From Methanospirillum stamsii (lineage in GTDB: Archaea; Halobacteriota; Methanomicrobia; Methanomicrobiales; Methanospirillaceae): DNA of 53,916 nt. Under the pieces are notes generated by a model that had not been told where the DNA came from, ran no database searches, and was given only the letters and a program-made list of their open reading frames with translations. Where the stretch lies: NCBI RefSeq assembly GCF_003173335.1, contig NZ_QGMZ01000026.1:1-53916 (forward strand), written 5' to 3'. The stretch's first letter is position 1. Every line of letters starts with the position of its first letter. Below, piece by piece: positions 12,881 through 17,773 of this stretch. A program made the position numbers and the translations under genes.

Positions 12881-13633
12881 TCACGTAATTTTGGATTTTA
12901 CTATCAGTTCTCCCTTCCCCTTGTTCGCAACATCCCCATGATACATCATCATCCCGTCTTTTTCCCCAATCCTCTCAAAGGTCGGGAGCATCTCATGGAT
13001 CTCACCCCGGATAATACAGGTTCCTTTACTCATGTTCGCTGCTGGAATTCTGGCATCCCCATCGATTATCAAGCATCCGCCACGCATTTCTGCCCCTGCA
13101 AACATTCCGGCATTTCCATGAACATGGATTTCGCCTCCAGTCAGGTATTCTCCCAGGTAATCCCCTGCATTTCCTGTGACTTCGATTTTTCCGCCCCTCA
13201 TCCCCCGTTTTTCACCACGGTATCCGGAACCGCAGTAATCTCCGACATTCCCGTGACAGAGGATGGATCCTCCCCGCATCTCACGACCAAGCCATCCGTC
13301 TGCATTCCCATGAATCTCAATAAACCCTCCCCGCATGAAATTCCCGCAATGCATCCCGATATCTCCTTCAACAATAATCGTCCCGGATGACATATACTCG
13401 CCGACCCGTTTTACCCGGCTGGTATCACCCCGTAGTACGACAACAATATTTTCCGGAGAGTTTACATTTCCTTCTTTCCTGACGGTGAAGATATCTTCCA
13501 GCCTCTTTTGTTTGTTCCCTTCCCAGACAAAAAGGTCATGGCTTCCGATAAAATTCATTGGGTTTATCATCTCTGCTTCAATCGGCAGAAATGGTTTAGC
13601 CCGGGGTTTCATAGTTAGGGTTACCTGCATCAT
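12881..13633 (-). CDS. fwdC: formylmethanofuran dehydrogenase subunit C
   Basis: Subunit C of the Mo/W enzyme that reduces CO2 and binds it to methanofuran as a formyl group, the first step of methanogenesis. The 250 residues contain the regular GxxGxxxG beta-helix repeats of this subunit and of the glutamate synthase alpha C-domain (for example MHCGNFMRGGFIEIHG). Its ATG overlaps the stop of the PIN-domain gene as ATGA, and its ribosome binding site (AGAGGA) lies inside that gene. It is separated from fwdA by the PIN/antitoxin-like pair, which is unusual. A second ATG one codon later is also possible. Confidence 0.95.
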   Translation of the reverse strand: MMQVTLTMKPRAKPFLPIEAEMINPMNFIGSHDLFVWEGNKQKRLEDIFTVRKEGNVNSPENIVVVLRGDTSRVKRVGEYMSSGTIIVEGDIGMHCGNFMRGGFIEIHGNADGWLGREMRGGSILCHGNVGDYCGSGYRGEKRGMRGGKIEVTGNAGDYLGEYLTGGEIHVHGNAGMFAGAEMRGGCLIIDGDARIPAANMSKGTCIIRGEIHEMLPTFERIGEKDGMMMYHGDVANKGKGELIVKSKIT

Positions 13634-14049
13634 AAGAAATCCTCTGGAACAGATATAATTCCGAAATTTTTCATCTCATTGAAATGGTGATCAACTGTGA
13701 GGATTAGGGGAACATGAATACTTTTTGATACAGCCAGAAGTGAACAATCTGTGTAACTCCATTTTTTATCAGAAAAAGAATGATAAATATTCCTGGTATC
13801 CTCATCTTCAAGCCATGTGATCAGATGATAGTTACATTTTTCTCGTAAAAATGAACCAATTGGTAAGGCATATTTTGGGTGGATTTTAAATCGTAACCAG
13901 GTCATTAATTCAGAAAAAACCGTTGATATTATGATCCATTCAAGGTTTGGATTTTCCTGAATATATTGTGAAATTTTTTGATGGTTTTGTTCGGAATCAA
14001 TGAAATAGGAGATGAGGGCGGAAATGTCAACAATGATTCTATCTTTCAT
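13630..14049 (-). CDS. PIN-domain ribonuclease, VapC-like toxin
   Basis: From the ATG at 14049 this gives 139 residues with the PIN-domain acidic set D8 (VDIS), E47 (FSEL), D101 (YTDCSLL) and D120 (TVDHHF). Such proteins are Mg-dependent RNases, most often toxins of VapBC modules. The frame is open to an earlier ATG at 14064. The preceding small gene overlaps it by 11 to 26 bases, as in toxin-antitoxin pairs. The pair lies between fwdA and fwdC on the operon strand, and its end overlaps the fwdC start, so it should be co-transcribed with them. Its RNA target is unknown. Confidence 0.8.
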   Translation of the reverse strand: MKDRIIVDISALISYFIDSEQNHQKISQYIQENPNLEWIIISTVFSELMTWLRFKIHPKYALPIGSFLREKCNYHLITWLEDEDTRNIYHSFSDKKWSYTDCSLLAVSKSIHVPLILTVDHHFNEMKNFGIISVPEDFL

Positions 14050-14347
14050 TCCCGTCAGGCTCATGCACGCAGAACATCAGAATATCTTCATCGACGGTAC
14101 TTGCATAATTAGTAACAATTGGTTTTTTTCTTTCTTTCAATTGAGGATAATCTTTCAGATCCTGAATATCAATATATCCTTTCAGTTTTTTGATTGTCAA
14201 ATTCAATTTTTTTTTCACAGGGTCTGATATGTTTCTTTTATCTGGGTTTTCAGAATAAGACCTTATAATTGAGTAAACTTCGGAAAGTTTTTCAATAGGA
14301 ATTTTTTTGATCTCTGTTTCAATATCTGAAAAAGTGATAGTATTCAT
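14039..14347 (-). CDS. probable antitoxin partner of the PIN-domain protein
   Basis: A 102-residue protein of no family I recognise. The first 80 residues look helical and charged (IPIEKLSEVYSIIRSY; KKKLNLTIKKLKGYIDI), and the tail VDEDILMF is acidic, as in many antitoxins that cover the toxin active site. It lies directly upstream of and overlaps the PIN gene, the usual antitoxin-then-toxin order. An AGGTAGAT precedes its ATG by a few bases. The 52 bases before it, after fwdA, show no clear promoter. The antitoxin role is inferred from position and size. Confidence 0.6.
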   Translation of the reverse strand: MNTITFSDIETEIKKIPIEKLSEVYSIIRSYSENPDKRNISDPVKKKLNLTIKKLKGYIDIQDLKDYPQLKERKKPIVTNYASTVDEDILMFCVHEPDGNER

Positions 14348-14399
14348 TGGTTATCTACCTGTGTTATTGTTCATACTCTCTCTAAAGGTATCTTAATGA

Positions 14400-16097
14400 T
14401 TATGATGTCCCGGCTTTAATGGCAACACCCCGCTGAACATATTCGTCCTGGACAAGGTAATTCTCAAGATCAACCGAATAGAATCGCGAGAACTTTTCAA
14501 CAAACCGTGGACTTTTCATTACGTCCATATCTTCAGGCAGGTTCGCTTTCGACCAGAATGTCCGGTTAGCTACGCCCGTAATTACCTCTCCATCCCTGCT
14601 CACAATAACCCCGTCTTTCAGGGTGTAAAGGGTCTGTTGAAATGCTCCTATCACTTCTTCATATTGGAGTGATGGATCGGTCTGGTCCGGTTTTACCGGA
14701 TAAATAGCGATATCTGCAAGTGCATCTTCCCTGAAATGACCTTTTCCCTGGTTAATTATCCCGAGTGCCTTTGCCTGGCCCGCCCGGGTCATGACAGCAA
14801 TCTCTTCAAAACTCAGTTCCCGGTCGATGGTTCCCAAGGAGGTCCGGTCAGTGGTCAGTCGGTGAACCTGACGAAGTTCCTTCTCCCGGTATTTGTTCGA
14901 CATTAAAAGGCCGATAATCTCCGGATACTTGACAAATGGTGCTCCGTTCGGGTTATCGGTTGTCAGCATGCACTGCCAGGGATTTTTGACGAGTAATGCA
15001 AGTTCAAGACCGATTGCCCACATGATGCTGTTAACAGAGCTTTTCCTGCTATAATAGACCGGAATGATTCCGGAGCCTGTTTCAAGTTCTACATCATGGT
15101 TACTCCATTTATTGTGGTGTAATGTGTAAAGCCTGAATTCCATCGGGCCATCAGCGGTCATCGTCATCGTCCGGCCAAACATGACCTGGCCCATATCGAT
15201 AACAACCTGTGGTTTGTTATTTATCGAGTCTGATATTTTTTTTGCTTCTGATTTGATATCTCCCCAGGTATTACCGCCATACGAGTGGAATTGGACATGG
15301 GTGAGGTACAATGTCTGTCTGTCTGGATTCATATCACCCGGAATATCCAGGGTCTCCAGGGTTGTCCGGTAATTTCCTGGCATTCCAAGGTTATTACAGT
15401 GGAGATGTACTGAATGAGGAAGGTGAAGGAGTTCACAAGCCCTGATGGTTGTGTCAATTATTTCTCGCGGGGTAATGTCCCAGTTAGGTACTTCTTCATC
15501 GATACTTGCAAGGTCTTCACCAAATCCCCAGGCTTCAGTACCCCCGGGATTGGTCAGTTTTATCCCAAATCCCTTTACTGCAGCGAGCGTCCATCCGATG
15601 ACTGCTGCAGCCTGCCTGATGTCTTTGTCCCCGACTGCTTCGAAAAGGCTCCAGTTACCATCGAACAGGGTATTCGCAAGCATATCCTGCATGGGAGTTG
15701 CAGCAAATTCTTCATGGGTATGCCGAGCTTCCATTGGTGCCATTGCCCCTTCAAGAAGGGTGGTATACCCCATTTTGCTGTATCGGTAACTGTTACCGTA
15801 CGTTGTCGGAACGGTATACCCGGAGGTCGGATACATGGCACCCCGCCGAGGAGTCCTTCCTGCCCGCATGTCCTCCGGGCTCATGTACCTGCCAAAATTG
15901 ACTTTTGTCCCGCAAACATGGGTATGAGAATCAATACCGCCGGGCAAAGTCAGATTGCCTGCTGCATCAATAACCTCGCAGGAGCCGGAGACCTTATCGA
16001 CAATTCTTCCGTCACGGATGGAAATATCCATAATATCTCCATGAATGCCCTGCAGAGGATCGATAACAAATGCATTCTTAATAAGAAGTTCAGGCAT
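14400..16097 (-). CDS. fwdA: formylmethanofuran dehydrogenase subunit A
   Basis: The amidohydrolase-like subunit that condenses formate, made in FwdB, with methanofuran at a dinuclear metal site. The HxH ligands are H58 and H60 in GIDSHTH; further candidates are the lysine in FGIKLTNPGG and the histidines in SVHLHCNN. It has 565 residues from the ATG at 16097, which is preceded by GAGAGGAAAG and overlaps the fwdB stop by eight bases. A longer in-frame start at 16133 lies inside fwdB and is unlikely. Cytoplasmic, part of the Fwd complex. Confidence 0.96.
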   Translation of the reverse strand: MPELLIKNAFVIDPLQGIHGDIMDISIRDGRIVDKVSGSCEVIDAAGNLTLPGGIDSHTHVCGTKVNFGRYMSPEDMRAGRTPRRGAMYPTSGYTVPTTYGNSYRYSKMGYTTLLEGAMAPMEARHTHEEFAATPMQDMLANTLFDGNWSLFEAVGDKDIRQAAAVIGWTLAAVKGFGIKLTNPGGTEAWGFGEDLASIDEEVPNWDITPREIIDTTIRACELLHLPHSVHLHCNNLGMPGNYRTTLETLDIPGDMNPDRQTLYLTHVQFHSYGGNTWGDIKSEAKKISDSINNKPQVVIDMGQVMFGRTMTMTADGPMEFRLYTLHHNKWSNHDVELETGSGIIPVYYSRKSSVNSIMWAIGLELALLVKNPWQCMLTTDNPNGAPFVKYPEIIGLLMSNKYREKELRQVHRLTTDRTSLGTIDRELSFEEIAVMTRAGQAKALGIINQGKGHFREDALADIAIYPVKPDQTDPSLQYEEVIGAFQQTLYTLKDGVIVSRDGEVITGVANRTFWSKANLPEDMDVMKSPRFVEKFSRFYSVDLENYLVQDEYVQRGVAIKAGTS

Positions 16098-17394
16098 GTT
16101 CTTTCCTCTCCCTGATCTGCTCATATATTTCATTCATGAGAGATGTGTCAGTTGGGTATCCGGTTTCCAAAAATTTTCTGGTCCGGATTGGAATACCATC
16201 CATCCGGTAGGCAGTACCTGCGGCATCTATACCATTTACTGCACAGGGGATCTGGACGGTGCAGAGATGAGTGGTTGCACTCGGGTACGGGTCAAAGAGT
16301 ATGGTTGGGATCTTTGCGAGATGTTCACAGCACGCCCGTGGGAAGTGAGCACCCGGATCACTTGCCATAATGAGGGCAGCATCTGCTTCTTTTCTTGCGA
16401 GAATATCAACTGCAGTGGTTTCACCTGGATTATAAAAAGCAATGCCCCGTGCATAGTCAACCGCATAGGGATACCCGGTGATCCACGTGAACACTTCATT
16501 GGATCCGTATACATTCGAGTGTCCCCTCATGGGAGATATGGTCCATTTTGTATGACGGTTTAATTCATCAACAAATTCAATGGCATTGCGGATATTTTTA
16601 TATTTTCCTCCGGTCATGGTTACGCCGACACCAAAGAACAAAGCACCGAACTTCGCCTTTTTGCACAGTTCAGCAACCCCGATGAGTTGAGATTTCGGAA
16701 CACCTGCAATCATGTCTGGAACAACATCTTCTCTTCCCCTGACTATTGCCCGGAGAGCAGAGAGGACATGATAATCCCCTCCCTGTTCCAGTTGCACAAA
16801 TTCTGTTGCAATTTCTGCGGTTGCGGTCTTTCTCACATCAAAAACGATTACTTTCCTTTCGCGGAAGGCGTTATGGAGGAAGTATGCATCGGCATAGTTT
16901 GTATACCTGCTCAGGTGGCGTGGGTGTGCCTCAATCGGGTTGGATCCCCAGTATACGATGGTGTCAGCCCGGTTTTTTACCTGTCCAAGGGTGCAGCCAG
17001 GGTGTCCTACTTCCTGTATGGCAAGGATGGAAGGTCCGTGGCAGACCGATGTTGTGCTGTCAACGACACCTCCGATTAATTCTGCAAGGTGTGCTCCGAT
17101 TGCCTGCGTTTCGGTTACACATCCGGACCATCCATAGAGGAGCGGACGATCCGCTTCTGATAGTGTCTGCACGGCAAAAGCGATGGCTTCCTCATAGGAG
17201 ATGTCAATCCATTCATCACCTTTTCTCATGATTGGGCCTTTCAGGCGGTTATCAGCATCATCCAGGAACTTATGTGCACCAAGGGTGCAGGCATTTTCAA
17301 CTCCGGATATCTTTCCATCGGTCAGTTCAACCAGGATATCATCGCAGAGACACCCGCAATAGGGACACACAATATGCCGGACCTTATCTTCCAT
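16090..17394 (-). CDS. fwdB: formylmethanofuran dehydrogenase subunit B, catalytic
   Basis: The molybdopterin-containing subunit that reduces CO2 to formate. The N-terminal cluster ligands are in CPYCGCLCDD (C10, C13, C17), and the metal-ligand cysteine is C118 in SVCHGPS, at the same number as in the characterised tungsten enzyme. It uses cysteine, not selenocysteine. The start is decided by GGAGG eight bases ahead of the ATG at 17394; an earlier TTG at 17409 is rejected. It overlaps fwdD by 11 bases. Whether it binds W or Mo cannot be read from the sequence. Confidence 0.96.
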   Translation of the reverse strand: MEDKVRHIVCPYCGCLCDDILVELTDGKISGVENACTLGAHKFLDDADNRLKGPIMRKGDEWIDISYEEAIAFAVQTLSEADRPLLYGWSGCVTETQAIGAHLAELIGGVVDSTTSVCHGPSILAIQEVGHPGCTLGQVKNRADTIVYWGSNPIEAHPRHLSRYTNYADAYFLHNAFRERKVIVFDVRKTATAEIATEFVQLEQGGDYHVLSALRAIVRGREDVVPDMIAGVPKSQLIGVAELCKKAKFGALFFGVGVTMTGGKYKNIRNAIEFVDELNRHTKWTISPMRGHSNVYGSNEVFTWITGYPYAVDYARGIAFYNPGETTAVDILARKEADAALIMASDPGAHFPRACCEHLAKIPTILFDPYPSATTHLCTVQIPCAVNGIDAAGTAYRMDGIPIRTRKFLETGYPTDTSLMNEIYEQIRERKEHA

Positions 17395-17773
17395 AAGGAA
17401 CGCCTCCAAGTTGTCGCATCAGTTCTCCCACGGTTGTTATCGTATCTACCGTTGCTTCAATATCTGCATCAGTCTGTTTAAAATCAGGCATACCGGTACT
17501 GTGAGTAGTTCCGTCTACCAGGAAATTTGCATAAGGGCCGAGCGGGAGAAATCCGGTTCCTCTCTTTATTGTATCGTCGGATACTGCCCGGAGAATTATG
17601 GACAAATTATCAGTTTTTGCCTTAACTCGTTCCCCGTCATCAATACCAATCTCCATCATATCGACTGGGTTAAGCCTGATGGTCGAGGTCTCCCTGAAAT
17701 ATTCAGGTGAGTTTTTCCGGTCTACATGTGATCCCTGGATGACCGTCCTGCCGGAGTTGATCCTGATTTTCAT
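17384..17773 (-). CDS. fwdD: formylmethanofuran dehydrogenase subunit D
   Basis: A 129-residue molybdopterin-dinucleotide binding domain that completes the pterin site of FwdB, equivalent to the C-terminal domain of formate dehydrogenases. Visible marks are LNPVDMMEIGIDDGERV and, later, GFLPLGPYANFLVDG. It overlaps the ferredoxin gene upstream by ATGA and fwdB downstream by 11 bases, so translation is probably coupled. Confidence 0.93.
   Translation of the reverse strand: MKIRINSGRTVIQGSHVDRKNSPEYFRETSTIRLNPVDMMEIGIDDGERVKAKTDNLSIILRAVSDDTIKRGTGFLPLGPYANFLVDGTTHSTGMPDFKQTDADIEATVDTITTVGELMRQLGGVPYGR

Follow-up and report, generated by a model that had tools for sequence, protein, structure and literature searches.

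In Methanospirillum stamsii, two small genes lie between fwdA and fwdC of one of its several CO2-fixing formylmethanofuran dehydrogenase operons, one of them encoding a PIN-domain protein, and we wondered whether they govern this operon or simply reside in it. The window analysed comprises 53,916 nucleotides (contig NZ_QGMZ01000026.1, positions 1 to 53,916), and on its minus strand the open reading frame list and family profiles gave the order fwdD, fwdB, fwdA, X, PIN, fwdC. fwdB (16090–17391, alternative start at 17409; TIGR03129, E = 2.9e-181), fwdA (14400–16097, alternative start at 16133; TIGR03121, E = 8.9e-248) and fwdC (12881–13633; TIGR03122, E = 7.6e-84) were all assigned above curated cut-offs. 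The gene at 17384–17773 encodes a fwdD-like molybdopterin-binding subunit that matches the molybdopterin-binding domain (PF01568, E = 6.5e-13) and falls below the NCBIfam cut-off (NF042908, E = 1.3e-24). The fwdD-B-A-C order and the hydrogenase genes alongside, both kept in relatives, identify this as an Eha-linked fwd operon, the Eha link being taken from PMC2686161.

The same-strand pair that a sequence-only reading had placed between fwdA and fwdC was found as described. Gene X, a putative antitoxin gene of 102 codons (14039–14347 including the stop), is separated from the fwdA stop by a spacer (14348–14399) that forms the left junction of the insert in comparison with relatives. It is followed by the PIN gene, which encodes a VapC-like protein of 139 residues (13630–14049 including the stop). 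The conserved PIN start is the ATG at 14049 rather than that at 14064, and from there the gene shares 11 nt with the end of X, as is also the case in G154, another genome of the genus; a small partner gene thus lies immediately upstream of the PIN gene with the same overlap in two species, the layout of VapBC modules. The PIN stop (TGA, 13632–13630) overlaps the first fwdC ATG (13633–13631) to give the ATGA (13630–13633) noted before, and a similar overlap is formed by fwdA in relatives that lack the pair. If the second fwdC ATG (13630) is used as the start, the overlap with the PIN stop is reduced to 1 nt. This second ATG corresponds to the fwdC start of relatives; in G171 the first position is GTG. 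The purine-rich AGAGGA (13640–13645), 6 nt upstream of the first fwdC ATG and within the PIN gene, is likely the fwdC ribosome-binding site, in agreement with the earlier reading.

Searches with PIN and X over the relatives found the pair at the same site in one other genome, G154. Between M. stamsii (G000) and G154, identity is 66% for PIN, 51% for X and 87% for FwdC. At the nucleotide level, codon positions 1 and 2 are far better kept than position 3 in both PIN (0.80 vs 0.43) and X (0.73 vs 0.46). Because third positions changed far more than first and second ones, both frames are translated and constrained, and by this measure X and PIN are real genes; dN/dS for the two is only rough, since synonymous change is close to saturation. 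This pattern of change, together with the recurrence at the same site, argues against a pair produced by chance. The G+C content of X and PIN is 0.31–0.33 vs 0.46–0.49 for the fwd genes.

The PIN protein matches PF01850 above the cut-off (E = 6.6e-8) and shows VapC matches. All four acidic residues ascribed to it earlier are present, as D8, E47, D101 and D120, and these catalytic acids are invariant in 13 aligned relatives. A profile of the 13 members searched against the PDB matched VapC20 (E = 2.3e-28), AF_1683 (E = 1.9e-17) and VapC26 (E = 2.5e-15), and a narrow two-sequence profile matched VapC26 (E = 1.2e-4). VapC20 and VapC26 of Mycobacterium tuberculosis (PDB 5wzf, 5wz4, 5x3t), the best solved-structure matches, belong to the same PIN family and carry the four acidic residues. 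By sequence, then, the protein is VapC20/VapC26-like, and it is by sequence alone that it is likened to VapC20, whose PDB deposit is titled a 23S rRNA-specific endonuclease. The identity to both is low, however, and no known VapB can be recognised in X. AlphaFold models built from the single PIN and X sequences, with pLDDT values of 35–39, were not good enough to search for similar folds and gave no structural support.

Close relatives of this PIN protein are rare. They are present in two of the 232 genomes of the class, with none in the other 230, and no matches were found in viral contigs and phages. The nearest PIN in the collections searched is encoded on a Gloeocapsopsis dulcis plasmid (38.5% identity, E = 8e-29; PIN and partner WP_105218331 / WP_105218332). 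The PIN of this cyanobacterial plasmid pair (L230, 2256–2908) resembles that of the window more closely than does any PIN found in archaea other than Methanospirillum, which hints at transfer between domains. The plasmid partner gene overlaps the PIN gene and has a tail like that of X, but the plasmid pair lies between unrelated genes and the N-terminal part of the partner aligns unconvincingly with X. The same two-gene layout is seen in archaeal PIN pairs with AbrB-like, AF2212-like or ribbon-helix-helix partners, many of them in Halobacteriota. Their PIN proteins, however, are only 19–29% identical to this one in the alignment made, and their partner tails mostly end in xHDxYLYG, unlike that of X. 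Among the distant PIN relatives with a readable upstream gene, the majority have a small overlapping or adjacent partner.

The identity of X is less clear-cut. It has no recognised domain: Pfam, NCBIfam, PHROGs and the PDB gave nothing of weight, in searches that a diverged family member would escape. An X profile run over 393 genomes of the phylum returned only weak matches, mostly within long unrelated frames, and viral contigs and plasmids returned none. Close inspection of its C-terminus revealed a motif, TNYAxxVDxxL, that recurs in the small partner of the Gloeocapsopsis dulcis plasmid PIN; the cyanobacterial partner ends in TNYAEQVDDVLY, X has TNYASTVDEDIL, and X of G154 has TDYASTVDQDLS. 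BLASTP and hhalign aligned the two tails at the same spot. Tail-only shuffles gave p = 0.001 for M. stamsii and 0.02 for G154; with the whole sequences shuffled, significance was marginal or lacking (p = 0.05 and 0.29). A comparison of X with xHDxYLYG, the tail usual in archaeal partners, gave no significant result (p = 0.30 and 0.78). The shared tail is modest evidence that X is an antitoxin, which would make it a candidate outside the named families. The sequence-only view of the pair as a VapBC module stands as far as the complete PIN, the overlapping small partner and the patchy distribution are concerned; what speaks against it is X, which falls into no known antitoxin family and does not carry the xHDxYLYG ending of other archaeal partners. 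Taken together, X and PIN are a probable toxin-antitoxin pair of a kind common in archaea, here in an unusual position.

The sequence-only reading had suggested comparing fwd loci across Methanospirillum and its relatives, and this comparison found the pair in two genomes, an empty site in two and a scar in one. In G171, the nearest relative (97.6% identity in FwdA and 94.8% in FwdC), the site is empty and the fwdA stop overlaps the fwdC start; in G182, fwdA likewise overlaps fwdC directly. In G202 (JAQVIE010000048, locus L049), a gap of 132 nt separates fwdA from fwdC, and the final 60–90 nt of this gap align with the 3' end of PIN from G154, scoring 102 against a shuffle mean of 23; none of 1000 shuffles reached that score. 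Judging from this match, G202 keeps only the decayed 3' end of PIN as a scar. X is present in two of the 12 Methanospirillum genomes and, with the empty and scarred sites, shows the patchy distribution of mobile modules. More widely, fwdA lies upstream of fwdC in 77 of 80 related loci and overlaps it by a few bases in 75 of the 77 (the exceptions are L049 and L113), so that the expectation of fwdC normally adjoining the other fwd genes holds well. Because fwdA ends in such an overlap in these 75 loci, the stop/start overlap with fwdC is, on this comparison, the ancestral fwdA-fwdC arrangement, preserved by the insert. The PIN gene of G154 differs in that it stops a few bases short of fwdC, with no overlap.

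The history of the pair can be read in two ways. The fwdA-B-C-D tree has the form ((G000,G171),((G154,G202),G182)), in which the position of G182 is moderately supported (58–91), and it fits a single gain followed by loss in G171, G202 and G182 as well as two gains and one loss. The fwdA tails and overlaps are intact in G171 and G182, as would be expected alike from precise loss, from a second gain or from exchange with an empty allele. Homology of the left spacer between species was not significant. At the G154 locus (L128), around the fwdA stop and the fwdC start, some 44 nt at the left end of the insert look like the end of PIN and the beginning of fwdC, possibly a decayed direct repeat that dates from the insertion; with a best shuffle p of 0.006, uncorrected over 12 comparisons, and no counterpart seen in M. 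stamsii, we do not claim such a repeat.

The explanation we consider probable is that a VapBC-type module entered the operon without breaking it, has been maintained as a toxin-antitoxin pair and lost in some lineages, and does not control the operon. Chance insertion, one of two alternatives in the sequence-only reading, fits best with the low G+C, the empty sites, the scar and the same-site pair in G154. The insertion would have happened in an ancestral member of Methanospirillum, precisely at the fwdA-fwdC joint of the Eha-linked operon. It would have broken neither gene and would have left a stop codon directly before the fwdC start or overlapping it, so that the operon went on working. 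X and PIN would both be read from the operon transcript, and X would bind and silence PIN through its C-terminal tail. VapC20 and VapC26 cut the sarcin-ricin loop of 23S rRNA. By analogy with these relatives, PIN freed by the loss or degradation of X would cut RNA, possibly at this loop. The pair would persist because it is self-maintaining and cheap rather than as a control of the operon, and would be lost from time to time. Closely related methanogens that carry the pair, lack it or retain its scar in one and the same operon form a clean natural experiment. They show that a probable toxin-antitoxin module can come into and go from a core energy operon while leaving it whole, and they caution against inferring function from such a position.

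Only five of the 12 Methanospirillum genomes yielded a close full-length fwdC ortholog, and G163 and G167, both 99% complete, did not; the Eha-linked fwd copy is thus itself variable, although several fwd-negative genomes are incomplete. The M. stamsii genome holds at least two further fwdC homologues (35–37% identity). For M. hungatei JF-1, three fmd/fwd gene sets are described (PMC4704411), one of them adjoined by the Eha cluster (PMC4704411, PMC2686161), and the fmd-flanked Eha cluster of M. purgamenti is thought to be anaplerotic (PMC11346949). The description of this fwdC as an essential subunit is thus not supported. The Eha-linked set of JF-1 (Mhun_2094-2112), described in PMC4704411 and PMC2686161, is the same operon, and the term-matched passages of these two papers contain no PIN, toxin or inserted pair. 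Toxin-antitoxin genes stabilise replicons that carry them (PMC2701414), and the variability of this fwd copy would suit an addiction module by which loss of the eha-fwd segment removes the antitoxin and frees the toxin, so that carriers are retained. We regard this as unlikely, since the pair disappears more readily than the operon does (the G202 scar; the empty sites of G171 and G182) and the incomplete genomes weaken the case for operon loss.

Improbable, in our estimate, is a regulatory cassette made when eha-fwd is on, in which PIN trims operon mRNA or cellular RNA and thereby sets the fwdC level or slows growth when low-potential ferredoxin is short. The same-strand overlapping genes imply co-transcription, and X and PIN are under protein-level constraint in two species. 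M. stamsii has about 20 PIN genes (19 matches listed plus the window's own); rough ORF maps of 17 of these loci show mostly ordinary isolated pairs, some calls being ambiguous, and no other locus with readable neighbours is clearly so tightly embedded in an operon. However, two of the five fwd-bearing relatives lack the pair and a third has it in decayed form, and the fwdC overlap is older than the insert. The operon is thus kept without the pair, and the coupling of fwdC expression to an RNase toxin as a control switch, the other alternative offered earlier, finds no support; X-PIN looks like a dispensable passenger instead. Slightly less credible still is a built-in switch in which translation through X and PIN into fwdC, combined with RNA cleavage by PIN, would tie growth to the activity of the Eha-fwd CO2-fixing complex in species that retain the pair. 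Equally remote is the idea that X and PIN have ceased to be toxin and antitoxin, PIN having been domesticated as an RNase for some housekeeping RNA task and X being an unrelated partner. The missing family match and archaeal tail of X would allow this; against it stand the tail motif common to X and a bacterial PIN partner and the patchy presence and decay of the pair.

The fwdA-fwdC joint holds another kind of insertion in a Methanospirillaceae metagenome-assembled genome. At locus L113 (8841–9701), about 1.2 kb separate the two genes and contain an opposite-strand ORF that, judged by eye, is MobB-like, MobB being a protein of molybdopterin-guanine dinucleotide synthesis.
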